Shown here: positions 5,337-60,559 of the stretch, piece after piece | Layout of the letters: each line of letters starts with the position of its first letter | How positions within the stretch are numbered: position 1 is the stretch's first letter | Source: Pagrus major | Taxonomy: Eukaryota > Chordata > Actinopteri > Spariformes > Sparidae | DNA length: 64,000 nucleotides | Assembly: GCF_040436345.1 (NCBI RefSeq) | Contig: NC_133223.1 | Span: 15,004,113-15,068,112, forward strand | Direction: 5' to 3' | Notes under the pieces: model-generated | Seen by the model: the letters and a program-made list of their open reading frames with translations, nothing else | Databases searched by the model: none | Told to the model about the DNA's origin: nothing | Program-made: the position numbers and the translations under genes

Positions 5337-14626
<9,290 letters not shown>

Positions 14627-15637: not shown

Positions 15638-16562
15638 TCACAGGGTCATGTGTTTCTCTGGCGCCTGCTTGTGGGCGAGATACAGGAAGAGGATGCTGGA
15701 CAGGGCGCTGACCAGGAAGATGACGTCAAACCAGCGGTGGTAGAAGTTGAACTGCAGTTCTCCCAGCACCTCTGTCACGATGGAGCGATACTCCAGCGGC
15801 ATGCTCATACGCATCAGCAGTACAGATGATACAAAATACATCCCCTGAGACACAAAGAGAGAGAGAAAGTTTTGCTTCATCTGTTTGTAATGGAGGCTTT
15901 TAAGGGCCAAAACTAAATATATACATAAACATATAAAAACATGAATAAAATGCTTAAATAAATGAATGAATATAGAATAATATAATACAACGTTTAAACA
16001 AAAAAGTGAGTGCAACACACTCACCATGATCTGAGCGAGGACAAGCACGATGACATTGGAGGACTTGCTGCTTGATATTGCGTAGAAGAACTAAAAACAA
16101 ACAGACGTACCACTCAAAAAAAATGATCTCTGATTTGTAGCCATTTCACTGTGCATCATGTGATACTTTTACCTTTGTGAGGGTGATGAGTAAGCCACGG
16201 ATGGATGTAACGATTATGATTCCCACCAAGATGAAAGAGATGTGTTGGGACCAAAATTTTACCTGAGGGGGGAAAAAAGAGAACAAAAAAAATATGAAAA
16301 ACAAAGCAATGAAAAGAAACAGAGGCTGATAGCTTTTAATCTGCATTCATCATTTATTCATTAAAATTTTAACATGATGCCATCCTCTGTGAGTGTGAGC
16401 TATGTGAACTCAATCAAATAACCGTCTACGTGGTGAAAAGATTAAAAGCAATCATGACCAGCTTCACTGCTGAGAAAGCAGGCAGAGAGATGATAATGGG
16501 CCAGCGATTATCTTTACAGGAGGCCATGCAGCATGACATGTGACTGTTTCTGCAGGTGTGTG

Positions 16563-25016: not shown

Positions 25017-28000
25017 ATGAAGAAGATGATGAGGAAAGGTCTGCAGGTGTGTTTATTCCTACTGATGGTGGGAAGACTGCAGGGTGAGTATGGAAAAACT
25101 CAACTGGAGAACTCCCGTCACATCATATTGTAATGTTTTTTTAGTTGTTTTTTTTAAAGGTGCAATATGTAAGAATTTGCCGCCTGTCAGTTCAAAACAA
25201 ATAGCGGGCAGCGCATCACCAGAGCAACTGCTAACTGCTGCTTACTGTAACTGCTGTTAGCTAGTTAGCTCAGTTAGCCGTGCAGTTAGCGATCAAGATC
25301 TGGGGCTTGTAGAACCGGGGGAATGTTGGTGTTTATACCGCTTGCACGGGAGCATTGGGCGGGAACATGGCTAGCTGGTTAGCATGCTGACTTCAGTAGA
25401 TAACATCAGAATTGTAGTTTCTTTACATTCTGTTGATGATGTTTTGTCAATTTCTGAATGTTTTCACCCAAAATTCGTACATATTGAACCTGTAAATATT
25501 GGTTGTATGTTTCAGGCAGGGTAACAGCTCCGGAGCGTCTGGTAGCTCCAGTGGAGAAGCCCTTCAATCTGACCTGCAGTGTTTCGAGGGATCGAGGTGA
25601 GTCTCTGAGGCAGGTGCGCTGGCTGGATGTCCAGAACCAGACCCTGCTGAGCTACCTGCCCGGCCAGAGAGACAGTGTGAGCGGACAGCAGCACGTGGAG
25701 CTCCTCTCCTCCCCGAAAGACACCTCGGCTATCACCATCCGCCGGGTGGGCTTCCGTGATGAAGGCTGCTACACCTGCATCTTTGACATGCATCCGTCCG
25801 GTTCGAAGCAGGGGCAGACATGCCTCACTGTCACCTGTGAGTAAGTCCATTAAGGACAGCAGCTTCGATTTTATAAGCAAAGACGACCAGTTTAGAAAAG
25901 ATCTCTAACCCTGAGAGCCCATACCATCACTCTGGTGGGTGTAGTTCAGCTTCATGCAGGGCAGTGTACTGATACAGTTTAATACATAGTGATCTCTCAT
26001 TTCCTGTCATCGTTTGACGATCATCTTCTGTTTAGATATAAGGAATTTAGTTGGTGCCTTTACCAGAGCAATTTAAAGTGAACATCAGTAGAATAAGCTT
26101 TGCTTCGTGGATCTCCACTGCCAAAATTGACTAATAGTAAGGAGCCATTGTTCATACCATGTCCTGAATGACATGCTGGTATGTGACAGAGTTAGAAATA
26201 CAGTGATAAAGCAAGAACAACACAGCTGTGGGTCTCTGACATGTGTTCAACTCTGACAGGAGAGATTTAGATGAAAAATTATTTTTTTATCCAGGAAGTG
26301 ACTCTGCTATTGTGCCACAAGTCATGAACCAGATGGGAGAAGCCGTCACTTGAGCAGAATGTCAGCAGAATATAAAGAAATGAAAAAACACCCATTATTC
26401 TGATTTGCAAGTGTTCACTGTGGCCTTGTAGCCGCGCCAGATAAATATGAATTAGCTTCTTAAAACTGGATAGAAACCCACTGTGTACCTAAATTAGCTC
26501 AATCATTTGTATTACAGTTAAAGGAGAATTCTGGTATTTTGAAACCAGGGCCCTATGTTTACATATTTTGGTGTGAAGGGAACTAATAGGCAGTCCCTTT
26601 GGGAAATTGTGATGTTGTGATTACCTAAATTGCAAAATTGTTCCGGCCCACACCAGTCACATTCATCCAGCCCACATACTGCGTGGGCTGGATGAGGGTA
26701 TCTAGTACAATTAAGCTAACTGGGAAGGTCATGCAGAATTCACAGGGACTGCAAATTGCAAAACATTGCAACTTCCTGGAGGGACTGAATATGTGCAAAA
26801 AGTTTTGAATTTGGTCTAGAAGATCGCCTTTACACCCATACCAGTCTGTGTCGCATAACATAATCCTCAAGGTCAACTTCGACCTTCAAAGTACCTCCAC
26901 TAAAAGCTCATTTAGAAATATCCCTCCGGAGATAAAGTAGACCTTTTTGTTAAACCAGAAACAGCTGCGCAAAATCCACCAGACTACACTCACAAAAACA
27001 GTAATTTTATTATTAAAAAACACACTACTCAATACAAACTCGACAGAAACAAAATTAAGCTCACCAAAACTGTTTTCTTTCACTGTTACAGCAATCGCCA
27101 GCTCTGGTCTGGTTGAAATAAACCCTTAAATCACCGTGTTGAAGTGGAAATATCAGGGGATTAGTAGAGAGGTCATATATCAGAGAAGCAGCTGGGAAAA
27201 ACAGCAGGTAGAGCCAGAATATTTTCACTTTTAACACACACCAAAATATGTACACTAATGACAAAATAAAAAAAAATACCAGATCTGCCTTCTAATATTG
27301 GATTTTATTTTCTGCCAGCTGTGGTTCATTTGCAGCCATTTAACTGAGAGCTTGTTGACACCTCTCTAGTTATTCTCACAAAGTGGGAGGTATCATCGGT
27401 ATCAGGAATTCCTGACATGTCAGACTGGGAATTACAAGTGAGAGACTGACAGTTTTTCCCACTCCGCTGCTCTGTGGTGAATATGGCACAACAGATTTTG
27501 GATGCCTGCCCTTTGCACCCACCCATTAGGATTAAACAAAACCAACCCTCCAGTAGACTCCAGGGACAGCTACTCCTCCCTCCAACCTGAATATCAATCT
27601 GCTGCGGGGATTTACTGAAAATACTTGACTACAGACGTCCCTAACCTCTGAACACAAGTTGTTGAGGCTCAGCCAGTCATGTTAATAAAGAGCGGTGGAG
27701 CAGTGGGAGAAGGAGGGCTTATTCTTCTAACCAGAAACAGCTGCTGCAGATTCCAGTGACTGGTTTCTGTTTGGGTGCCTCATACTTCTGAATATTAGCA
27801 TCGTCCTGTTTTTCACCCTCTGTCTCCCCTCCCCTCTTCCTTTTTCTTATCCTTTCTCCCTCATCCATCACTCTTTCACTGGATGGTGGGCTCTTTTATT
27901 CCTCCCAGCGCATGTCGCTGCCGACAGCAACAAGACAGCAGTGAGCGGCAAGAAGGCCTTCCTCTCCTGCTCCTACGGTTTGCCCGAAAAGGTGCAGCAG

Positions 28001-31000
28001 ATCACATGGAGACACACGTCAGCGCAAGGAGACTCCACAGAGGTGGCCTCCTTTGCAAAGCGGAGCGACCCCATGATAGAGCCGCCGTACCAGGGGAGAG
28101 TGTGGCTGAGTGCCTCCCTGTCCGACAGTCAGCTCACCATCCAGCCCGTCGCCATCCAGGACGAGGGCTGCTACACCTGCCAGTACACCACACATGCTGA
28201 AGGGCAGAAGAGCTCCACGGTTTGCCTCGCCACTTATGGTAAAAATCTTTTTCCCACCCAGCCATTATTGATCAGTACTCTGTATTAGATTTCAGTATGG
28301 CACACACAAACAAAAAAGGGGGAGGAAAACTTGAGGTCCAGCTGTAGCATCATGAAATGAAGGAATAAAGGCCATGAGGCTGGATTAAAGGATAGATTTA
28401 CCAGATTTAAAAGCTCAATTTCAATAAAATAATTAAATCTCGTGGCTCTACTAGGCTTTCCAAATTTTATTGGACCGAATTATGATAGTCAAATGAGTCT
28501 TTTGCGGTGATTATGACGCTCAAAAAATTGTATCCACCGTTTTACAGCTGCTTCTTTCACAATTTAACCTTAAAGGAAAAAGTCTTTTTGGGCCACTGCG
28601 CATCACGTGATGTTGCAATTACACGGTTTGGCCTGGTGCTCTTCCTGGGGGCTTGGTTTAATTCACCAAGCCTGTGTTTCAGGCACAAAGCTGCAGCTGA
28701 TCACGCCACAAAGACTACAGCCGACAGCCAACTAGCTTGTACATTCTGCACCTGCGTGAGAGGTAATAACCCTCCGTACCACCAGGTGGCGTTAGTCTGT
28801 ATTTGAGATTCAAGAAAGAGAAGGCACAGAATTGCGTATATACAAACCGTTGTTATGATAAAGAAGTGTTTCACTATCATTTCTCACCATCCTCGCTGAA
28901 AGAGCCACTGTTAATCAAGAATATATCTGAAAAAAAGTTGGCTCTGGTGCGCTCCGGCACCACGACACCCATGGTTATTTATCATGTGTTGGACAAGTGG
29001 AAGCGTGAAGTGTCAAGGAGATCACATGAGTTAAAAGCAGTCTTAATATGGGGGTCATGAATGTCTGTATCAAATTACACACCAGATTTCATGGCAATCC
29101 ATCCAATTGACATATTTTACTGTGTTATTTTAAGTGTCGAACCAACAGACTGACCAACATTCCTGAGGGCACGCTGCGAAAACAGCTAAAAGTCTGGCAG
29201 ATAAATGTATCTTTTTTGTTAACCGGCAGATGTTTTCTTTTTCTGAAAAATAGGTAGTGGTTGTTCTGATTCACGTTTTCACAAGGCTGTCGTTTTTGAT
29301 TAGATATCCTACAGTAGATAAAGGAGCTGCAGAGACAGGCTCCTGTGGGGAAAATGAAGGGCTGAGATGCATGTGGATGAGGTCCGAAGAGATTCAACAA
29401 GGTGGACCAGGAATGTTGATCTTTTCTTTCTGATCGTAGCTGCTGAATGTTTTCATGATGCAGCAGGGCTGATTTGTTAACACACACACACACACACACA
29501 GAACAGTGTGTCCATGTGAAGAATGGAGCATTGGAAAGAAGGATGGAGGCAGGGAGCGAGGTCCTGATGCATGACTGTGTCAGTGTTTGCAGCAGACAGT
29601 GATTCCCTCTGTGCTTTGTCTCGCTCTCTCTTTGCTCATTTGCTTTCACACTTTTCTCCCGTTCCCTTTCTCTCACAGTAATCTCAACAAACAGATGTGC
29701 TTTTGTTTGAAATCGAACTGTACAGTACAGTAGGTGTTTCTGGTAGTGAGGCACTATTAGTATTAATGTGATTTATTCTTGCACACCCCCCTCCCCATCC
29801 TACTCTGGATGATGTGATGCCCCCTCCTTTACTCCCACTCTCACAGCCAACAAACAGTGTTAGCTAAAATGGACTTCTCTCAGAACACAATAGAAAAAAG
29901 ATGTAACGAAGAATAAAAAGGCTGCCAGTGGGTTTGATTTGGCTGAGAAATTTCAATTACTTCAAGTGGTTATAATCTTTATTTTTAGTAATGTATCAAA
30001 GAACAATGTGACAGGGGAGCTACCCTCAGATTTACAATGCTTTATAACAAGTGTCAGCTGTCTAGTGGCGTGGCCCACAACATTTTTGGTTCACTCTCCC
30101 CGGTCTCATGGCATTGTTTCATTGTCTCATGGCAGCACCAAACAGCAGGAAGACAAGCTGGTGAACATAGTGGAGCATTTAGCTGCTAAAGAGACGGATA
30201 CAATTTTTCCAGGAGTTGTTGAAGACCAAGTTAGTTAAAAGATAGTGAATGTTGGTCTGTAACTGCTGGATGTACCAATAAGCAAATGTTGGCAAACGAA
30301 AGCAGAAATAGACAACTTTGTTATGATATCATGAAAAAAAAGATTTTCTAAACGGTTATCATCTCACCATGTTATGCTAAATTCTTGTCATAACATTAGC
30401 TAGCTCGTATATGTTCCATGCATTCTGAGCGTACAGTATCGCACTCGCTTTACTCGCCTAAAGTGAGCATCCATTAATGTTCCCATCAGTTGTTTATGGG
30501 ACACTTATTATTGTAACACCGTACCAACAATGACAAGTATTTTGTTGGAAATTTTAGTATGCCTACATATTCAACAGTTACTTTGGTGGGACTTGTTTAA
30601 TACACATTTTTGTTTCCTTCCTTTTTTTTTGTATTTTATAGATTTAGTATTCAGAATGTCATTTTCTTCTTCAAGTGTTTTTGTCTGTTGCAGGTAGCAG
30701 TCCCCCCTCCCTCCTCTCTACGTCACCACACTTGCACAACTTCTTTTTTTCGAGGCAGCTCTCTTTGCCTGTTTCTAATCTTCAAGCGTGTCTCATGATT
30801 TGGCCTTATTGGTAGTATAAACCGTCACCAGGAGTGCTGGGATTGGTAGCGTTCCCTGTTCCACCATTGCCAGTGTAGGTACCAGAACAGGAGGGTCCTG
30901 CTCTCTGCGTGTTTACCGAGCAGATGGGACCACCCCTTTATAAAGTTCTCTGTCCTGTCCGGATAAAGCGGGCATGAATACCAGAAAATGTCTTTTCTCT

Positions 31001-34000
31001 TTTGCTGGATGAGCAGGGGAGGTTTGCTGACCAAATACTCTGTAACAGTGGAATTCAATTTAAAATAAGAGCCCAGATTTCACACTAGTTTTGAGCTAAT
31101 TTACAGGGAATTATGGTTTGGATGGTTAGGAGAATTTTTCCTGTTGCGGTTTGACCCACCCTGAAATCTGATCCAGACTGATAGTGGGTGAAGTTCTCCA
31201 CCTAGAACTCTGAGAAGACACTCTGAGGGCCAAATATCTGTGGCTAAACGTGTCCTTGCCAACAACAATGTTCTCGATTCCAGTGTATCACATTCCTCAG
31301 TCAGCACCAAGAATGGAGAATTGAAAACAGCCAAAGATTTACTTATGGATCTTAAGTTGGCAGGAATTCACATACCTTAGCTGATCCAGAGGCTTCAAGG
31401 TTTTTCACAGGTAAATACAGAATAAACTACACTCTGGATTTTTGCCAGTTTTTGGATTAAAATAATACACCTCATATGCCTGTCATCCCACAGTGTTCTC
31501 ACTTAGTGTTTGATCATCATGTGAGAACATTTCCAGAAAGTTTCGCCCATTCTGGCCGAACAAAGGAAGTTGATGGAATGAATTAATACCTCAGTGCATT
31601 TCAGTGAAACTGTTATATCTGCCAAATGTATAAATCTCAGGACGAGTTTCTTTGTGAGTAAATGTCTTCCAGTGTTTTGTGATACTCATTCCAGCCGTTT
31701 CTGTTTATTTGTCCCAGTGCTGCCCAAACCTCAGGTGAGCTACAAGACTACCTCTCCAGGTGTGATCGAAGCCAACTGCACGTCAGTGTCACGCCCCCCT
31801 GCAGAGATAGTGTGGAACGTGGAGAGGGATAACCGCACCATGGGTCCCCCTGTGACGACACAGCTCCCGCAGGGAGACGGGACCACCCTAGTCATCAGTA
31901 CACTGACTGTCCAATCAGGGCTGCTGAAAGACGTGTCCGTCAAATGCTTGGTGCACCACAAAGGGCTTGAGTCACCGATTGCTGTATCCATGAACACTAA
32001 AAGTGAGTTTGTGTCTGCAAACTCCTCTTTATTCGAAGTTTTTGATAGCATTGTGTCTTTTTTTCCAGCATACACCAAAAATAGTTTATATCATCATTAC
32101 CTAAAAGGTAACAGGAGACAGTGTGTGTTGACGGGTCTTTGGGAGTTCTACTGCATGTGTGAAAAAAGTAGTATAAAGCCTTTTGTGGCTCCAGAGGAAG
32201 CTGCATGTAATCTGATAATCTGATGAAATGCCTCCAGTGATGTCACTCAGTGGCTAAATTGCATGGTGGGTAAGGCACAGTTTTTAAGAGCAGTCCACTG
32301 GTCTAACATTGTGCTCCTGTTGGACTCATTATAGACAGTTTAAAAAGAAATGATCAGATTCAGCAGAACCAGATAGTCTGCTTCCTTTTCAAACATGGCG
32401 CCTTCATTACCCACAATGCAACTTAGCCACTTAGTGGCATCACTGGAGGCAATTTATCAGATTACATGCAGCTTCCTCTGGAGGCACAAAAGGCTTTATA
32501 CTACTTTTGTTTAACATATGCAGTAATACACCCCAAGACCTGTAAACACACTTTAATGGGTACAATTGGTTGAGTTACCCTTTAAGTAATGATGATATAA
32601 AGTACTTTCGCAGTATTCTGGTAAAAATAAAGACACAATACTACCCTTAAAGATGTGTTTTGTAAAAGAAGACTACTAGCACGCCAGGCTAAAACTAAGA
32701 ATGCTAAACAAAGCCAACAGAGGTTGGTTGAGACAAAACTTTGACGGGTGCTTGATCAAAAATCAAACTGACAACAAAAGACAGAGAAAGTTCTGAACAT
32801 TGTACTGATAACTCTCAGTAAATTGAATTTAACAGCAACGATTCAATTTAAGGTCCACACACACACATCAAACAAACATCAGTGTAATATATTAGATTAT
32901 ACTGAATCTTTGTCATGTGTGAGGTTCAGTCTGTTTTGGCATGTTCAGTCTGTGAGTGATGTTTGTGTCTGTATTGATTGTTCAGCTTTTTTGCTCACTT
33001 TACATTTATGGGGAGCTGTCAGGACAGTGTGTGCTCATCTTTTTTCAGATTTTTCCCGTCAGACTATAAAGGAAAGCCAAAATCACTTGTTCTCAAATGT
33101 ACCATTTGCCCTATACAACAATTTCTAAAATAAAACAAAAACCTGTATTCGTTTTAATGCAGCTATTGATGGGCAGTATGTAAACGTGCTCATATGTGCC
33201 ATGTGTGCGGCTTTAGTTTGCCGGTAACCTGTAGTTAACCTTGGTTTCATGGCTCAGGACTGTACACATTAGGTAAACCAGATAGTAACACTATAGTTAA
33301 TCTCAAATTTAATAAGTGAGGGTCCATAAAAGAGACGCAGTGTCCAGACAAGCGCAGGCTGTTCAGCACACAGACACAAATACCAACAGAAAATTTTACC
33401 CTAATAACATTTAACCACTGAAAGGGCAGGATTTACACACTGTAACTGATTATTAATTTTTGTGTGTGTCTGTCTTTCTCTCTCATAGTTGGGACGGCTC
33501 TCACCATCCTGATCTCAGTCACTACAGTGGCAGCCCTGTTGGTCATGTCCCTCTGCTTCTGCCTTTGGAAGTGTTTCCTGCGCAAAGAAGGTGAGTGCGG
33601 CACAGCGCTTGGTTATTTTCATGTTTGGAAATGCCAAAGTTTATATCAACAACTAAGGGAAATAAATGAGTTGGTAGGCATCATACTACTATACACCTGA
33701 CACACCCTTGGGGCCGTTTAGATACCGATGTATGGAAGCATATTGGGGACAAAATTCTTCTCAATTCCTTAAATGTGGGGAATTTATGTTGATACGACCC
33801 TGAAACAAGAGTTAGATGTTTTTTATTGTTGGTCTCCACCCACACCTCCGTCACCTACATTCATACAAGAAGAAAGAGCACGAGGGAGAAATTAATAAAC
33901 TGGATAAATTATACCTCAAACATATTTTTTTCCAAAATGTAAACCAAGAGATTGCCAACTGATATCCAAAGAAACCTGCTGCTATTATTTTACTAGCTAT

Positions 34001-41702: not shown

Positions 41703-43391
41703 TTAAGGAATCAGGATAGTTAACAGTGTTAGAGCGCCAAACAGCAGAGCTACGCCAAGACAGATGAAGAAGTAGGGCAGCCAGGACAGATCCTCATCAC
41801 CAGCAACACTTGGTGGCTCATCTACAAAAGCAGAAGGACAGTTTAAGCAATAGTCCTCCATCCATTACAAGTTAACAATATAATTGAACATATATAGGTT
41901 CTTACCTGTTGTATCGATTGACGTTTTAACCCCCTGGTAGAAGTCTGTAGATTGATGGAAAGAATACAGAATGAACACTTGAAGTCATCTTAAATGAACA
42001 TTTTGGCACTGATGGATAAAAAACTGCCTACCTGACACTGAGATGTTGATGACGTGACTGATCACTTCATATTTGTATCCTTTCAAAGAACATACGTACA
42101 GGCCGTCGTCATGAATGGAAATCCGTTTGAAAGTCAAAAATGAGATCAGGTCATCTTTAACGTGTTTGTCATTCTGTTGTACATTTTCTGTACCATTAAT
42201 CCGTTCACATATGTTTGTGTCACTCAGTTTACACCAGGTGACATTGAGTGATTCCCCGCAGTCGTTGACAGGACACCTGACTGTCACACGTTGTTGTGGG
42301 GCTGCTGTCCATGTCGTGCCTCTCCGGACCAGCAGCCCAACTTCACATGAAGGAGACACGTCTAAAATGATAATTAAAAAAATCAAGAACACTTAAGTTA
42401 ATTCTAACAATTGTTTGTTTTTGGTCAACCTGTCAATGCAAGAAGTCTTGTTATGTTGTCTAAATATATTAAAACTATCTTTCTTTATTTCTATTTGTAA
42501 TGTACTATAGGTACCCAATACTTGTTTTAATGATACCCCATTAATACTTAATAAGAACTCTGTAATTTAGTATACAGTAGCTAGTAAGATGTAAACATGT
42601 CATTATGTCTACCTTTTGTTTTCTTTTTGATGGTTTACTATGTTTGTTATTTTATAGTTTTCTTTTTAACCTTTTACATTCCAGCCCACAGATTACAGCG
42701 TAAATACTTAATACATACCAATAATATTCTTACTGACCACTTATAATGGGAAATGTACAAGAAGGTAAGAGAGTTGCAATCTGTACCATGTAAGTACTCT
42801 TTTAATTACCCAGTAGGCCAACATGTTAAATAAATCTTGTACATACTGAGGACCAGCGAGCTAAAAGAAGTTCTGACAGTAAAACGACATGAAGAAGCCC
42901 TCTTTGCCTGGTCACAAACTGTAATAATATGTACGGTAATATAATAATTTCAAAATAAATTTCCCCCTGGTTACCTAGTAATGCTAATTATTAAATGAAT
43001 ACATGGTGATTAAAATAAACTACTTATTCACATATAATATATTTGTTTTAAACTCTTAGCTTCTACATATACCTCACTTCTCCCGCACTGTCTCAGTGCT
43101 GAAACGTAGTGTGAAGATAGGTCTGTCTGTGTGAGACTAATGCCTCAAATACCGTACTCTAAATAATTACAGTGCAATTTACAGGCTGTAATCTAAAGCT
43201 TTACTTTTTCCCCTTAAGTTAATGACTTTACTCTATTCAAAATGTTCCCTCACGCTCACTTGAAAGTCATATAAGATAAGTGAGTGTTGCATCTTACCTT
43301 GACTTCCTCCATAGATGCAGACAAATGTGACACAGTAAAATACCAGCAGATAGGTACGTGGCAGTCTGTCCATTAGGCTTGACATCTTCAT
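41703..43391 (-). CDS. BTLA-like receptor A, tail-less
   Basis: Single-Ig type I membrane protein. Exons in transcript order: 43391-43298, 42361-42032, 41944-41906, 41821-41703; 582 nt, 193 aa. The leader is MKMSSLMDRLPRTYLLVFYC. The Ig domain carries VRCPVNDCGESLNVTWCKL, close to human BTLA ECPVKYCANRPHVTWCKL, plus DDGLYVCSLKGYKYEV. A 13-residue stalk exon (FYQGVKTSIDTT) follows. The last exon codes DEPPSVAGDEDLSWLPYFFI CLGVALLFGALTLLTILIP then TAA: the membrane segment ends the protein, with no cytoplasmic tail. In mammals BTLA binds HVEM and signals by ITIM; this copy cannot signal alone. It may be a decoy, adaptor-dependent, or lipid-anchored by cleavage. CD160, also an HVEM binder, is a less likely identity given the Cys pattern. 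Confidence 0.78.
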
Positions 43392-44755: not shown

Positions 44756-47700
44756 TCAGGAAACATTACCAACAGCATTTTCTGCCTTTTTGTTCTGTAC
44801 AGTCGCAGTGTGCTGTTCTCCGACAGCTACCCCAGACTGCTGGTGCTTGATGACAGCGTACACTGCACGGTGTGGCACTTCCCCACAGCTTTCTGTGTTC
44901 CCCACAGCAGGCTGCTGGTTCCCACTGGTCATCAGGGGTGGTTGAGATGGTGGTCTCTCTGCAGGACTTGGAGGGTGGATGTCATTCCGAAAGGGGGTTT
45001 GCAGGAAAAGAGAGGAAGGAGAACTCTCCTTGGGGAGGTTGGGTATCGTATGATTGGACATCTCCTTTGAAACCAAAACACCAGGACAAGGTTACTAAAG
45101 CCAATCAAGTACTCTTGCTGGACACCTTTATGACTCTTGTACATCTAGGGTAAAGGAATAGTTCAACATTTTGGGAAATTAATTCTCCTGCCAAGAGTAA
45201 AATGAAGATTGATACCACTCTAATGTCTACAAGCTTAAATTTGAAATGATGCTAAAATCCAGCAGCTGCTTAGCTTAGTTTATCTCTAAGACTGGAAACA
45301 GAGGCTAACCTGGCTCTGTTCGAAGGTAACAAAATCACCTATCAGCACCTCCAAGGCTCACTAATTAACCTTTAAATACTCAGTCGTTTTCTGTCAAACA
45401 TTCCTACAAACCTTGGGTCTATAGCGACCCAGCAGTTAACACAGATTAAAACATTGCCCATTTGAAATCAAATTGCTTGGAAACTTCTTACTTACAATAA
45501 CAAGCACAAAAAATATTTATAAAGTTTTTTACAAAAAGTTTTTAGAGGTCAGGCAAACATTCTTTTATTCATTGACACTGGTGGCGTTTGAAAAAACACT
45601 GCGAAAGTGCCCTGTTGGATGCCCCTGTGGTACTGCAGCTAAAAGATGATGAAGTGCCCTCTAGGGCGGCCTTCTGATGCCTTTTCTGCATGCTGGTCCC
45701 TCACAGGCACATCATACAGTGGGTGCCCTTTTTATTTGTTTGGTCCCTGCCCCTAAAACATCCTGAGTCCGCCACTGTTCATTAACATATTTCACTGTAG
45801 CCTGTTATATCTCAGGTTTATACTGTTCTAACTTACACCTAGACTACTATAACCTATCATAGACTGGCAACTACCAATCAAGTTGCAAACAAAGTTAGCC
45901 ACTTGATCGTGGACATTTCAAGGCATTTCACCAGCTGAAGCTTCTGTGTCTGGAGACCAAGACCAAGTACCTGAGATCTTCTGGCTTCCAAAGTTGGAAA
46001 TTTGGCCAAGAAAAATGAGGTACTGGAGATAACTTGAAAAGGTTCCCACAACAGTCTTAACATCTCTCAGGAGGACTGTTTCAGAGCTAGCTTTGTTATT
46101 CAGTGAGCTAATAAAAATCACTATGCCTGTATTTCCTCATAGTAACAGTGAGACAGTGCCACCATGAAGCCAGACAGGAAAACACAACATTACCTGCTAT
46201 TACTTGCATCACACCTCCTATCAACTTTTTTGAGAAACAGACTCGAAAAACAATACTTTTTTTAAAAATAGTTTTTGGGGTTGAGTGCTTAATTGAATGA
46301 AATTATTGAATTAAACAAGCTGTAATTAAGTTCCAGGCTGCTAAAGACCTGAGTTATGCCCTAATCCATACTTAAACAAACGTGTAAAAACTGGCTCTTA
46401 GCAAAACAGTGACTAAATTTGTTTCCCAAAATTTCAAAACATTTCTTTAACTTCACATTACCTGTCCGTTGTTGTGGTTGATAGTCAGTATTCCTGTGAA
46501 GAAGACATGAAACAAATGCTCCATTGTTAGATGGTAAGATCCAGAAATGTTATCACAGTAACTGACTGTGAATAAATGCTAAATCTCTTACGTTTCCTGC
46601 CATAAAAACTCAGGTGGGTAAACACTATCAGTGCAGTGACCAGAAGAGCTATGCCAACACAGATGTAGAAGTAGGGCAGCCAGGACAGATCCTCATCACC
46701 AGCAACACTCGGTGGCTCATCTACAAAAGCAGAGACAAGATCAGTAGTCCTAGTGTGTCCCCATTCAAATTCTACAATACAACAAAACTTCCACCACAAG
46801 ATTGTACAACGATTCAACAAATATAGGTTCTTACCTGTTGTATCGATTGACGTTTTAACCCCCTGGTAGAAGTCTGTAGATTGATGGAAAGAATAAAGAA
46901 TGAACACTTGAAGTCATCTAAATGAACATTTTGGCACTGATGGATAAAAAACTGCCTACCTGACACTGAGATGTTGATGGAGTGACTGATCACCTCATAT
47001 TTGTATCCTTTCAAAGTACATACGTACAGGCCGTCGTCATGAATGGAAATCCGTTTGAAAGTCAAAAATGAGATCAGTTCATCTTTAACGTGTTTGTCAT
47101 TCTGTTGTACATTTTCTGTATCATTAATCCGTTCACATATGTTTGTGTCACTCAGTTTACACCAGGTGACATTGAGTGATTCCCCGCAGTCGTTGACAGG
47201 ACACCTGACTGTCACACGTTGTTGTGGGGCTGCTGTCCATGTCGTGCCTCTCCGGACCAGCAGCCCAACTTCACATGAAGGAGACACGTCTAAAAGAAAA
47301 AGAAGCTGTTCATCAATTGAAGAACTAATACAAGATAACAGGAAAGTGTCTCTCATTACTGTAGTAGATTAAATACATCTACAAAATATTTGTTTAAATG
47401 CAGGAAATCTAGCTTTTTCAAAATATATTAAGACTTTTTAAAAATTATGCAATTTGTTCAATTAAAGGTCCAATAAGTAAAGCAGTTGATTGTTGAGTCT
47501 CAATCCCAACTCTTCAAATATTGACACTTTAGGTTGATGGCTGGCCTGACCTCCCAACCCAAAGTGTTGGTGGTGGCCTCAGGAAGTTTGAGGTGCAGGG
47601 GCAAAAAAATAAAAAGGGCACAAGCTGTATGTGGTGGAGCACTAGCATGCAGAAAGTTTATAGTGAAATAGTTAGATTTTTTATCATGTGATTACAACTA

Positions 47701-50787: not shown

Positions 50788-53309
50788 ATGGGAAACTGCA
50801 CCTCAAGGTAAGTAATCATCCTTAAAACGACTATGAGAGGACACTCTTACATGCCACGGAGAAATGTTTCAGCATGTGGTACTTACATTTTAAAGCTTTC
50901 CTGAAACTGCTGCGTTTATTATGTTTGAATTAGAAGAAAATGTGGGTGAGAACATTTTAAAAAAGAATAAAAGAAACATGAGACAGCTGGAAACGCTTTA
51001 CACTTAGCAACAAGAAACAATATTGCATTCTGGCCCTGTTGCAAGATTCTCCTTCTGCATTCGCTACAGCGAGGAAATAGTGGTTGCTGGCTAAGAATAG
51101 ACTGTTTCTGTCATTAACAGGTCAAACACTAAGCATTCACATGAGCAGCTTTTCTTTTCAAAACAGTATGCATTTGTTATAACATGGTGTTGAGAGCATG
51201 CAAAGTTCCAACTCCCATGTCACAGACATAGACAGTTGGACATGGACAGATGTGGGTTTTAGGCATATGTAAAGTGTTTCCTGTTGCACCACTCGCTGTC
51301 ATCTGTTAAGCTGTCAAGGAAACACTGCTGTGGGGTAAAACTTACACCTCTCTAAAGCTGTTGTAGATATTATCTACTGATGTGTTCTGGTATTTTAAGA
51401 TACAGACAACACCAGAATTCGCTAAGTGGAAGTTAAATTAGCACATTCAATCTTTGTAATTGCTTTGTACGAGGGGTGGTTGACAAGTTCATGGCCTAAG
51501 GTAGAAGGAGATGACTTACACAGTTCTAATCTTTAAGTGATTATCAAGTTTGAAGTTAAAGGGGCTCTATGTGATATTTTCTAGCAATTTACATTTATTA
51601 ATCACTTTTGTATCGGCCTTCTGTCAGTGGATTGTAACCTGACGTGAAGTGTAGACCTTCTCCATCTCTCTCGTTGCCTATACAAGCCCATAGACTTAAA
51701 GCTGCTGTAAATTATATGTGTTAAATAGCTCTATATTCCGAACAGATATGAAGTTAGCTAAAACAACGACAACACTTACAGCAGCTTTAAGTTGTTTAAT
51801 GCTGCTGGACTGTGGATTTTTCTCCAGTGCCTCTCTCTGCTCAGCTCATAGAGAGCAATAGTGGCTTACCTCCGTTCAAGTCCGCCAACATAATGACACG
51901 ACCGGGCCCTTAAATAGCTTTGTTTGGTCTTTATGTTTCCGGTTCATGAGAATTGCAGACAGTTGTTCCAGTCCACAGTGGCGATGAGTGCCATCTAAGA
52001 ATGCAGATTTGAACTCATCCAACATCCGTCCTGTTCTCCCAACCCAATCACGATCTCGTGACAACGCTGTGCTTGCTCTGGTTGGGTTTAGGCACAAAAA
52101 CCACATGGTTAAGGTTAGGAAAATAGTTTGTTTTAGTTGCCACAAACATGGCTCATCCCCTTCCCTCGCCTCCTGACATGAAAGTTAGGTCATAAATGCT
52201 AAATATAAATGTGATATGGCACCTTTTGGTTAACATGTCAATGTGGTACACAGCCTATGACATGCACAAATGTGAGTATATCCGTGATATGCAGAAACGT
52301 TAAGTTCCAACATTTTATCCTGGGGACTGGGCTGAATTTCCTGATTTGACACCCCCAGACTTTTACCACTTCCCTAGTATGAAGAAGGAGCTCGGTGATT
52401 GTGATTTTGATGATGTTGTCACTACTGTGGAGCACTTTGTAGAGGTCCAGGACGTCTGCAAAGAAGAAATTATGTAGGAGGGGACTATGTTGAAACATAA
52501 ATGTGCTAGGTTTTCTGGAACTAACTCCTTCTACCATAGGCCATGAACTTGTCCGTCACCTTTTTGTAGATCTGAATGTTTGTGTCATTATTTTGGTCTC
52601 ATCATTTGTATTTGTTCTACTTCAGGATAAAGAAGAGAAGTAAAGGTAAAACCACATTTTTAGTAAAACAAATAGTTTTAATAGTGGTCACTAAGAAAAA
52701 TTTATCAAAATGTATACAGTTTAGCAATGATTAACATTATATGTATATATACACTGTCTCTTTTAGGGAATTCTGCTCCAGATGATAACAGCGGCACAGA
52801 TAGTAAGGTAAACCTGCACACATCAATGCTGAGTCTATTTTTGTTGAGCATAAATCTTATCAGTTCAAGCTTTTCATGGGACATGGGTGTGTTTCTGTGC
52901 TTTTATGACAGCTCAGTCAGAGGTGCTGCCTCGTCTGATTTGCATACTGGGTGAACATTAGCGTGAGGCTTGTGGTCAAAGAAACTGTGTGGCTGATAAT
53001 TTCACTTATCACATCAAAAACGTGCTTGTTGCAGCTGCACTGCATGAAAAAGTTGAATAAATTATTTGTAACATGTGTTCAGGATTGAGGAATTACCATC
53101 TCACTCTGTGAATTGTCTCATGACAGCCTAAGGAGGATGTAACATATGCCTCGATCGACCACACCTCTGTCAAGAGATCAGGAAGACCCACAGCTACCAC
53201 GGATGATGATTGTGACTATGCTACGGTCAATATCCCAGCAGCACTTCAACCAGAGTCTGAGGGCTCATCTAAAGAAGAAATTGACGATGATTATGTACTG
53301 ATGGGGTAA
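50788..53309 (+). CDS. Small predicted lipid-anchored tyrosine-motif protein (orphan receptor-tail adaptor)
   Basis: Four coding exons: 50788-50807, 52626-52645, 52767-52807, 53127-53309; 264 nt, 87 aa, all with GT-AG sites and matching phases. It starts MGNCTSRIKKRSKG: Gly2 could be myristoylated and Cys4 palmitoylated, followed by a basic patch favouring the inner membrane leaflet. It has no signal peptide, Ig domain or membrane span. Tyrosine motifs: VTYASI (Tyr34, ITIM form), CDYATV (Tyr58), DDYVLM (Tyr83, also YxxM, a PI3K p85-type site). The 60-residue last exon resembles the cytoplasmic tail of fish inhibitory Ig receptors. It lies head to head with BTLA-like B (1.9 kb apart) and between two tail-short receptors. 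I know of no named family. The two 20-nt coding exons make the 5' half less certain; the ATG choice rests on the acylation motif and phase. Confidence 0.65.
51478..52553 (+). mobile_element. Mariner-type transposon remnant, interrupted
   Basis: Inverted ends GACAAGTTCATGGCCTAAGG on the left and CCATAGGCCATGAACTTGTC on the right. Inside the right half (about 52325-52500) the plus strand keeps FPDLTPPDFYHFPSMKKELG-like and later CTTTGTAGAGGTCCAGGACG text, the usual end of a mariner transposase. About 51560-52240 is other repeat DNA inserted in it. Lies in intron 1 of the adaptor-like gene. Confidence 0.65.
51560..52240. repeat. Repeats inserted in the mariner remnant
   Basis: TTAAAGGGGCTCTATGTGAT begins a TTAA-type repeat. 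About 52075-52200 carries TTGGGTTTAGGCACAAAAAC, a common fish repeat also seen at 56450. The limits are approximate. Confidence 0.4.
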
Positions 53310-57587: not shown

Positions 57588-59874
57588 TTATTTTCTCTTG
57601 TACAAAAATAAAAATCCTGCCAAAATCACAACGATTGCCAAAACAATAACGACACGCAGCCAAGGATCATAACCTGCTGTGAGAGAGTGAAGATTAATGA
57701 TGTGTTAATAATCTGCTGGACCTCCCATATATTTACAAAGTTATAACTGGAAATATAACATAAAACAACAAGTAATTTCTTTCTCTTGTGCTGTGCTCTC
57801 TAAAAAAGTCTGACCTTTTGTGGGTTTTGGTACCAAAATATGCTCCTCTCTCCAGAACGGGTGGCTGATAGCACAGCTCAGGTTTCCTGTGTCCATTCCG
57901 TCTGAGATCTCCAGACGACTCTCTGCTGTAAAAAACCCATCTAGGTCAGACGATGTTTTCACATCCAATAAGTTTCCCGCATGTCTCCAGAAGATGTTGG
58001 CAGCAGGTTTTCCTCTTTCAGCTTTGCACACTGCCACCATCTTGTTGTCCTCGTGCTCAAACCAGGCTGATATACTGGGAGGAACTGAGCCAGGGAGGAC
58101 AAAACAGAGAAATTAAACTGTTTTCCTTAACCACTGTTTCACTATCTCTTATACTCAGATGAAAATCGTCAACAGGACTGTGAGATCGGTGCAATATGCC
58201 GAGGATCAGAGACATTGTATCTTGAGAGTTCAGAGCAACAGAAAATAAATGACATTATCCCCCATTTTGTAGTGGAAGCAACAGGTTCAGTAGTCGATAT
58301 TTCAAGATCTTGGCAAGTAAAACATAAAACTACCTGCCGTAACGAATAAAAAGTAAGGAAAGGTAAGCAGAATTTGCGTGATTTGGGTGAAGTGGACATT
58401 TAAGAAGTGAACCTTAGTTCATGTTTTCTAAAAAATCATCTATCCTTGTGAGGAGAAAAGTCCTACCTGTGATAGCCACGTTGATCTCATAACGCACACT
58501 TCCTCCTTTATAAACAGTCTCACATTTGTAGACCCCTTCATCACCATTTGTGAAGTTTGGGATGTGCAGGTACGGCCGATCGCTGGATGTGATTCTGAGT
58601 GACTTGCCATCATTGCATGTGTCTACTCTTCGGCCTCCGTCATCTAAGGATATCTTACATTCATCTTTGTATTTCAGCTGCATTGTCCAGATAACATATA
58701 GCGTCTCATCCCATGTCTTATTGCTGCATGTCAAGTCAACATCACTCCATTCGTTGAAGGCTGAGTGTCTGACAACTGAAAAAAAGGAAAGAATAGTTGC
58801 ATTATTTTAACACATAGTGGTGCTCTGATTGTACCAATTGTATATTTTAGGTTTATTCTGTTATAGAACGATACACACAGTGCACATGTCCTGATGAACA
58901 CAAAACATGTAGAAGAGAGATTCAGTTTTCTGCATTGGATGTGGACAAGTGAGGAAAATAAAATAAACTATAAACAGCATGGTACACAGATACAACTTTT
59001 GTTATGAAGCATGGCACAGGATACAAACAGTATCACACAGTACCATATAGTTGCTTTATGTTTATTACTGACCATAACATATCCGCATTTATAAATATGT
59101 TAAGTAAGAACTAAAACCCTTAACTAATGATCCAAAGCAAACAAATTTTCTTCAAAATGGGCAAACATTTGCTATAGTCCCTTAATAGTTTAAAATTACA
59201 ATCCAAAATTGACTAAAGATTAAGATTAAACCTTTCTTCTGCAAAAACAACTTGTTTCAAAGCATTTATTTTAACATCTTACATTCTTTTAAACTAAAAA
59301 AGTGTTGGAAATAATGGTTAATAGGAGAGATGGAAATGTACATTTATATTTTTATCCCCATGTGCCCTCACTAGTATCATTCAATATTTTACTCTTTCTG
59401 CAAAATATCCAGAGAGAAAAGGAGATAAATGAGTTTACCATCACCGCCAATAGAAGAATCGTTAAAGTTCGCAGAGGTGTTAAGATTACTTCCTGTTTGA
59501 GATGGAGATGGATGTAAAGGAAAAAGTTAGTAAAACACAGTGTCCACTTTACAAAGCAACAATCAAGGGTTTATTCATAATCTGCTGGACATCAATACAC
59601 ACACAATGCACATCCTATCTATAAAAAAAGCTATAATCACCACTATATATGTAGACCTCATCAATACCAAACAGTTACACTGTTATTTATGGGCTGAAAG
59701 TTAATGACTCCAACCTAGTCAAAATGTTCCCTCATGCTCTCTTGAAAGTCATTAGATAAAAGAGTGTTATGTCTTACCAGGTCCTAGTCCATAGACACTG
59801 ACAAATGTGAAACAGTAAAACATCAGCAGATAGGCGTGAGGCAGTCTGTCCATTAGGCTTGGCATCTTCATCAT
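57588..59874 (-). CDS. CD200R1-like receptor with a four-residue tail
   Basis: Exons in transcript order: 59874-59778, 59492-59439, 58775-58467, 58084-57815, 57676-57588; 819 nt, 272 aa. Leader MMKMPSLMDRLPHAYLLMFY. A small extra exon (GSNLNTSANFNDSSIGGD) adds two N-glycosylation sequons. The V domain has four cysteines (LTC, DEC, DTC, YKC), as in CD200R with its extra pair, and DEGVYKCETVYKGG. The C2 domain has MVAVCKAERGKPAANIFW, close to human CD200R1 TAVCKAVAGKPAAQISW. The membrane segment VVIVLAIVVILAGFLFL ends YKRK then TAA. Mammalian CD200R1 has a long tail that recruits Dok2; this one cannot. A strong donor follows the stop by 7 bases (see findings). The donor at 57814 (GTCAGA) is weak. 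A ligand gene (CD200-like) is 23 kb away. Confidence 0.8.
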
Positions 59875-59951: not shown

Positions 59952-60265
59952 ATCCTACGTAAATTCGAAGACCATCTTGCACGTGTGTGATGTTCAGTGC
60001 GTCAATATAAAATAGTTCAGGATGTGCATGGACGTGAAAGCTGCATATTGTGTATTATCTTTCCAATTTAATACTGTAATACACCCTTACTGACACACCT
60101 CTTTACACAGATTGAGGTCATCCTCAATACAACATCTTAAACACATAGTTATAAAGGTTATTAAGTGGGCTTGTCACTTCAGTGGACTGGGGATTCACCT
60201 GTAAGCAACCCAGCAGGAAGTCATACAGATCAGTTTATTTTATACATTTACATTCTCTCTTTGAG

Positions 60266-60306
60266 GGAATTCTGCCCCAGATGATAAAAGCAGCACAGAT
60301 AGTAAG
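60266..60306 (+). pseudogene. Relic of the adaptor-like gene: exon 3 copy
   Basis: 41 bases with AG before and GTAAAC after, coding (G)NSAPDDKSSTDSK against NSAPDDNSGTDSK in the gene at 50788. Its flanking intron also matches (AGTGCTAAGTCTATTATTGT, TTGAGCATAAATCTT). Exons 1-2 are absent because the preceding homology jumps from the 49.28 kb equivalent to the 52.76 kb equivalent, and the tyrosine-motif exon was not found downstream. Not expected to make the protein. Confidence 0.7.
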
Positions 60307-60559
60307 GTAAACCTGCCCGCATCAGTGCTAAGTCTATTATTGTTGAGCATAAATCTTCATAGTTATCAGTTCCAGCTTTACATAGGACATGGGTGTGTTT
60401 CTGTGCTTTTATGACAGCCCAGTTAGAGGTGCTGCCTCGTCAGATTCGCATACTGGGTAAACATTAGTGTGACGCTTGTTGGAAAGAAAAAACTGTGCTG
60501 CTTTTTACCACAGGAAGTCATAACCACTCACCACATAAAAAGCATGCTTGTTGAAGTAG

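Follow-up and report, generated by a model that had tools for sequence, protein, structure and literature searches.

A gene of four short coding exons in Pagrus major encodes a small, most likely membrane-anchored adaptor that is likely of the HGAL (GCSAM)/GCSAML type, and is probably the ray-finned fish counterpart of these mammalian genes. The gene is located on the forward strand of the 64,000-nucleotide stretch that was analysed (the window; contig NC_133223.1, positions 15,004,113 to 15,068,112), where it extends over 2,522 bases and contains three introns (Table 1). GT donors and AG acceptors are found wherever introns meet the four exons, the intron phases are 2, 1 and 0, and the in-phase join results in a 264-base reading frame of 87 residues plus a stop codon. 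The product, MGNCTSRIKKRSKG...VTYASIDH...CDYATVNIP...DDYVLMG, looks disordered and corresponds to the NCBI entry 'uncharacterized protein [Pagrus major]' with 100% identity over the whole length and the same ATG. An earlier note on this DNA had proposed these exons, with their coordinates, splice sites, phases and 87-residue product, and all of this was reproduced in the sequence; the three tyrosine motifs that it named, VTYASI, CDYATV and DDYVLM, are correct as well.

Table 1. The adaptor gene and neighbouring features, in positions of the window
Feature	Position	Strand	Remarks
BTLA-like receptor, Ig-domain exon region	46817..47368	-	BTLA in all of the top five matches to solved structures, E 4.2e-9 to 5.8e-8 (46967-47296 compared)
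Coding exon 1	50788..50807	+	MGNCTS and two bases of Arg7; myristoylation pattern, Cys4; GT donor
Intron 1 insert	51482..52553	.	29-base inverted repeats (97%) at both ends; takes up over half of intron 1
Coding exon 2	52626..52645	+	basic patch: remainder of Arg7, IKKRSK, first base of Gly14
Coding exon 3	52767..52807	+	linker, polar/acidic; partial copy at 60243-60489
Coding exon 4	53127..53309	+	Y34 VTYASI (ITIM-like), H39, Y58 CDYATV, Y83 DDYVLM (YxxM), stop
CD200R-like receptor, V and C2 Ig exons	57744..58806	-	joined: CD200 receptor 1 E 5.3e-12, CD200 receptor 4 E 2.5e-9
Relic of a copied exon 3 with adjoining intron	60243..60489	+	87% identity to 52744-52984

Protein searches confirmed that the gene is real and conserved. 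A first search with the product gave 82 relatives, all 82 at E ≤ 10 and the best non-self match at E 7.7e-38, so the product is not a chance reading. A profile search gave 164 matches, of which 120 were listed; among the matches listed are zebrafish si:ch211-214p13.7 (40% identity) and a protein of the reedfish Erpetoichthys (36% identity over 76% of the query). The search of fish proteomes that the earlier note had suggested has returned both the identical Pagrus major entry and relatives as far as zebrafish and Erpetoichthys. The name si:ch211-214p13.7 is borne by several relatives, including these two. No paper naming si:ch211-214p13.7 was found by text search of the literature and, as far as the searches show, the gene is unstudied and the zebrafish copy has a clone name alone.

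Three alignments were used, namely 63 of the 82 first-search matches (19, mostly fragments and contigs, were omitted), 17 fish sequences picked for spread from both searches (for the profile search, from the 120 listed), and 29 of the 107 matches of a search with human GCSAM. In the alignment of 63 relatives, M1, G2, C4, Y34, Y58 and Y83 are among the invariant columns, a listing that seems to ignore gaps, since relative P0067 stops short of Y83 and Y83 is listed nonetheless. The ITIM-like tyrosine motif is present in all 63, while the number of tyrosines varies from three (44 of 63) to between four and seven in the remainder. Full-length relatives in one frame are also encoded by short contigs: P0040 (83 residues in 915 bases) and P0036 (88 residues in 1186 bases). 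These contigs look like spliced transcripts, because they are shorter than the 2,522-base, three-intron gene described here. The label lgn is presumably that of an assembly of public reads.

Multiple adaptors with tyrosine motifs, such as LAX, SIT, PAG, LIME, LAT and LAT2, are membrane-spanning. The earlier note regarded an acylated tail without a span as a new design, which does not hold, as HGAL is already such an adaptor; neither HGAL nor GCSAML was on its list of adaptors. HGAL (GCSAM, GCET2, mouse M17) is described as carrying myristate at Gly2, palmitate at Cys43/Cys45, a polybasic cluster, four phosphotyrosine sites, a PDZ-binding end and, at His91, the FBXO10 site (PMC11518702), and according to a 2020 review it 'does not contain transmembrane domains'. 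GCSAML (C1ORF150) is described with a myristoylation start and without a palmitoylation motif or PDZ-binding end, and the same source reports that mouse, rat and lower vertebrates do not have it (PMC11518702). No report of a fish GCSAM was recognised among the 30 papers listed out of 12,606 that matched a literature search, judged by titles and abstract openings.

In sequence, the fish family is closer to HGAL than shuffled controls are. The search with human GCSAM gave 107 matches, three of them contigs; since all named matches, going by their names, appear mammalian and no named fish is among them, there is no one-step link between the fish family and GCSAM. When profiles were compared, the 17 fish sequences matched the 29 mammalian GCSAM sequences with a probability of 72 and E 3.4e-5. 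On trimmed alignments the profile score was 36.8. Shuffling the columns 200 times gave at most 21.7, and 200 shuffles with the tyrosine motifs kept gave at most 27.4, so that 0/200 reached the observed score in either control. With the mammalian GCSAM model, 63/63 fish sequences scored above the 99th percentile of plain shuffles and 49/63 above that of motif-keeping shuffles, which the other 14 did not exceed; in the reverse direction, the fish model placed 29/29 and 28/29 mammalian sequences above these respective percentiles. The window protein itself obtained 12.4 bits under the GCSAM model, above the 99th percentile (8.6) and below the top score (14.4) of 3150 motif-keeping shuffles.

When seven proteins were run against the fish model, GCSAML ranked first (17.8 bits) and GCSAM second (12.6 bits), followed by SCIMP (7.5), the BTLA-like tail (3.5), LAT2 (0.8), SIT1 (-0.5) and LAT (-2.5), so that LAT, LAT2 and SIT1 differ from the fish protein in scoring 0.8 bits or less. 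SIT1 is a weak control, as the sequence used reached 23 bits in its own family against a cut-off of 27.6. The block E-[DE]-[VILM]-x-Y-x-x-[IVL]-x-H is found in 60/63 fish and 24/29 mammalian sequences, and the profiles pair fish Y34 with HGAL Y86, H39 with His91 and Y58 with Y128. The profile alignments cover Y34 and Y58 and stop short of Y83; by eye, Y83 was matched to HGAL Y148.

The phase of the first intron also matches. In the fish gene, intron 1 (phase 2) separates AG from G in the codon after MGNCTS, and mammalian forms with and without the residues SF, together with Arg/Ser changes at residue 10, indicate a phase-2 junction after AG there too. In addition, the goat form P0198 suggests, as judged from proteins, that the ITIM tyrosine lies close to the start of the tyrosine exon, which is also the case in fish.

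The adaptor gene is flanked by a BTLA-like gene upstream on the opposite strand and a CD200R-like gene downstream, the latter assigned with its V and C2 exons joined. The earlier note proposed that the adaptor might serve tail-less receptors nearby; a tail exon assigned to the neighbouring BTLA-like gene has its own tyrosine motif, AVYAVI. A second, very similar BTLA-like Ig exon is located at 41988-42392 (-); the comparison with solved structures covered the one at 46817-47368, and the two are probably a tandem duplication. Among ten neighbouring pieces, only Ig-, PDZ- and ABA_GPCR-type domains scored above the Pfam cut-offs, and the BTLA-like Ig exons remained below them. Further away, receptor exons at 25488-33697 (+), with V and C2 joined, match PVR/nectins (E 6e-14) about as well as CD200/OX-2 (E 2e-13), and the window also contains PDZ-like exons at 9346-12409 (+), one of which was tested with Pfam, a GPR89-like exon at 15638-16090 (-; ABA_GPCR, E 3e-16) and, by eye, long open frames like a Tc1-type transposase at 7778-8852 (+). 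The insert in intron 1 is taken to be the relic of a mariner-like transposon. The relic at 60243-60489 is not accompanied by copies of exons 1, 2 or 4, for which the sequence beside it was searched. Near this relic, at about 59760-59870 (-), lies what by eye resembles a second copy of the BTLA-like signal-peptide exon, and the two are probably the remains of a tandem duplication.

In human, GCET2 has been placed at 3q13.2 alongside TMPRSS7, C3orf52 and SLC9A10 (PMC2997777), and CD200 and BTLA are likewise given at 3q13.2 (PMC10353714; for CD200 also PMC10917927). No locus map showing GCSAM/GCET2 together with CD200 and BTLA came up in text searches of the literature. The shared locus with CD200/BTLA holds at the level of the human band 3q13.2, and the PDZ and GPR89-like neighbours, which we take not to be 3q13 genes, do not fit it.

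The location between receptor genes could also mean that the tail of a BTLA- or CD200R-type receptor became separate early in fish and acquired a start exon, with the likeness to HGAL arising by convergence of tyrosine motifs. The BTLA-like tail AVYAVIKH indeed resembles VTYASIDH and obtains some score under the fish model, but this origin is unlikely: most members are more like HGAL than motif-keeping shuffles are, whichever of the two models is used, the BTLA-like tail scores far lower than GCSAM and GCSAML, and both the start and the first-intron phase match HGAL.

The Pfam matches point in the direction of an HGAL-type adaptor as well. The window protein finds its best Pfam family in HGAL (PF15666; E 0.014), which is also the sole match up to E 1 for the zebrafish protein (E 0.002); the scores are 15.9 and 18.6 bits, respectively, both below the gathering score of 27 bits. 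HGAL is also the family matched by most relatives, 24/63 in the larger and 7/17 in the smaller fish alignment, while Erpetoichthys P0121 showed no HGAL match and exon 4 alone matched no Pfam family. Weak matches were obtained elsewhere, with SCIMP (14/63, best E 0.0011; 1/17) and SIT (14/63, best E 0.014; 4/17), and a few members match unrelated families at equal or lower E (zf-C2H2_16, 3/63, best 9.6e-6). Pfam alone proves little, given the SCIMP and SIT matches and unrelated families with E values as low. Derivation from SCIMP or SIT through loss of the span, to which these weak matches would point, is very unlikely, as both families are matched by fewer members than HGAL and both score below GCSAML and GCSAM under the fish model, SIT1 being the weak control. 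SCIMP, to which the fish protein is weakly similar around the tyrosines, is membrane-spanning, unlike the fish protein; the window protein lacks a span and obtains 13.2 bits against the SCIMP (PF15050) gathering score of 27.

Like HGAL, the fish protein most likely has fatty-acid anchors that attach it to the cell membrane from inside. The earlier note's N-terminal acylation pattern and basic patch stand, with the modification itself a prediction: the myristoylation pattern at Gly2 (PROSITE pattern) was found in 61 of the 63 relatives. An MG start is present in 62 of the 63; only P0030 differs, as its listed sequence starts further upstream and contains MGNC internally. A cysteine near the start is also counted in 62, P0030 aside, which is safer than 63 because P0030 passes through its upstream extension. 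P0112, from the alignment of 17, starts with MGNSFSK and has no cysteine near the start, which makes myristoylation the firmer prediction and palmitoylation the less firm one. A membrane span was found by hydropathy in 0/63 relatives (highest 19-residue value 0.8), and the maximum for the window protein is -0.05, compared to 2.36 for the BTLA-like membrane exon, in agreement with the span-less protein of the earlier note. The gene is also a separate one, as had been claimed, with no upstream Ig domain or span hinted at by the relatives. That the exons form the tail of a larger receptor with missed upstream exons is hardly credible: short phase-linked exons ahead of a tyrosine exon are generally known from receptor tails, but nearly all relatives start with MG at one place, none has a hydrophobic span, and the NCBI protein begins at the same ATG.

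What is new in this probable HGAL-type adaptor is its wiring, and its interest lies in the changed docking sites and in how old the family is. The fish protein shares with HGAL the MG start with (in fish, predicted) acylation, basic residues near the start, the lack of a span, the ITIM-like tyrosine followed by a histidine, more tyrosine motifs toward the C-terminus and the locus with BTLA/CD200. In contrast, it has half the length of HGAL, contains Cys4 and a YxxM site, and lacks the YENV site for GRB2, the CFC palmitoylation motif and the PDZ-binding end. YxxM was found in 62/63 fish and 0/29 mammalian sequences, whereas the HGAL GRB2 site YEN (0/63 versus 29/29), C-x-C, as in the HGAL palmitoylation motif C-F-C (0/63 versus 26/29), and a C-terminal PDZ-binding motif (0/63 versus 16/29, by a loose pattern) show the opposite distribution. 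GCSAML is like the fish protein in its myristoylation start and in lacking a palmitoylation motif and a PDZ-binding end, and has the top fish-model score, but differs in that its YEN site is present.

The SH2 domains of p85 classically dock on YxxM, and GRB2 on YxN. With YxxM present and YEN absent, PI3-kinase and a phosphatase are the predicted targets of the fish adaptor, and not GRB2 or PDZ-RhoGEF. In the mechanism that we infer, as regards acylation, phosphorylation, partners and expression or cell type alike, Gly2 would be a substrate of N-myristoyltransferase and Cys4 of a palmitoyltransferase, and the acyl groups together with the basic patch would keep the chain at the inner leaflet. 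Once immune receptors are activated, their kinases would phosphorylate Y34, Y58 and Y83; Y34, in the ITIM form and aligned to HGAL Y86, may then recruit SHP-type phosphatases, and Y83 (YVLM, the YxxM form) the p85 subunit of PI3-kinase. The protein is probably an early-branching HGAL-type adaptor, with PI3-kinase as its putative partner.

HGAL, a mammalian lymphocyte adaptor that binds SYK, has been studied as an adaptor of the B-cell receptor and in lymphoma. Tentatively, this germinal-centre adaptor, known from mammals only as far as the literature search shows, may be far older than germinal centres, with fish from reedfish to sea bream keeping a minimal acylated YxxM/PI3-kinase form and mammals having exchanged YxxM for GRB2 and PDZ-RhoGEF docking. 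If true, the fish form would show the role of the adaptor before mammalian germinal centres, and the docking logic, PI3-kinase versus GRB2, would become testable in zebrafish, where the gene has a clone name only.
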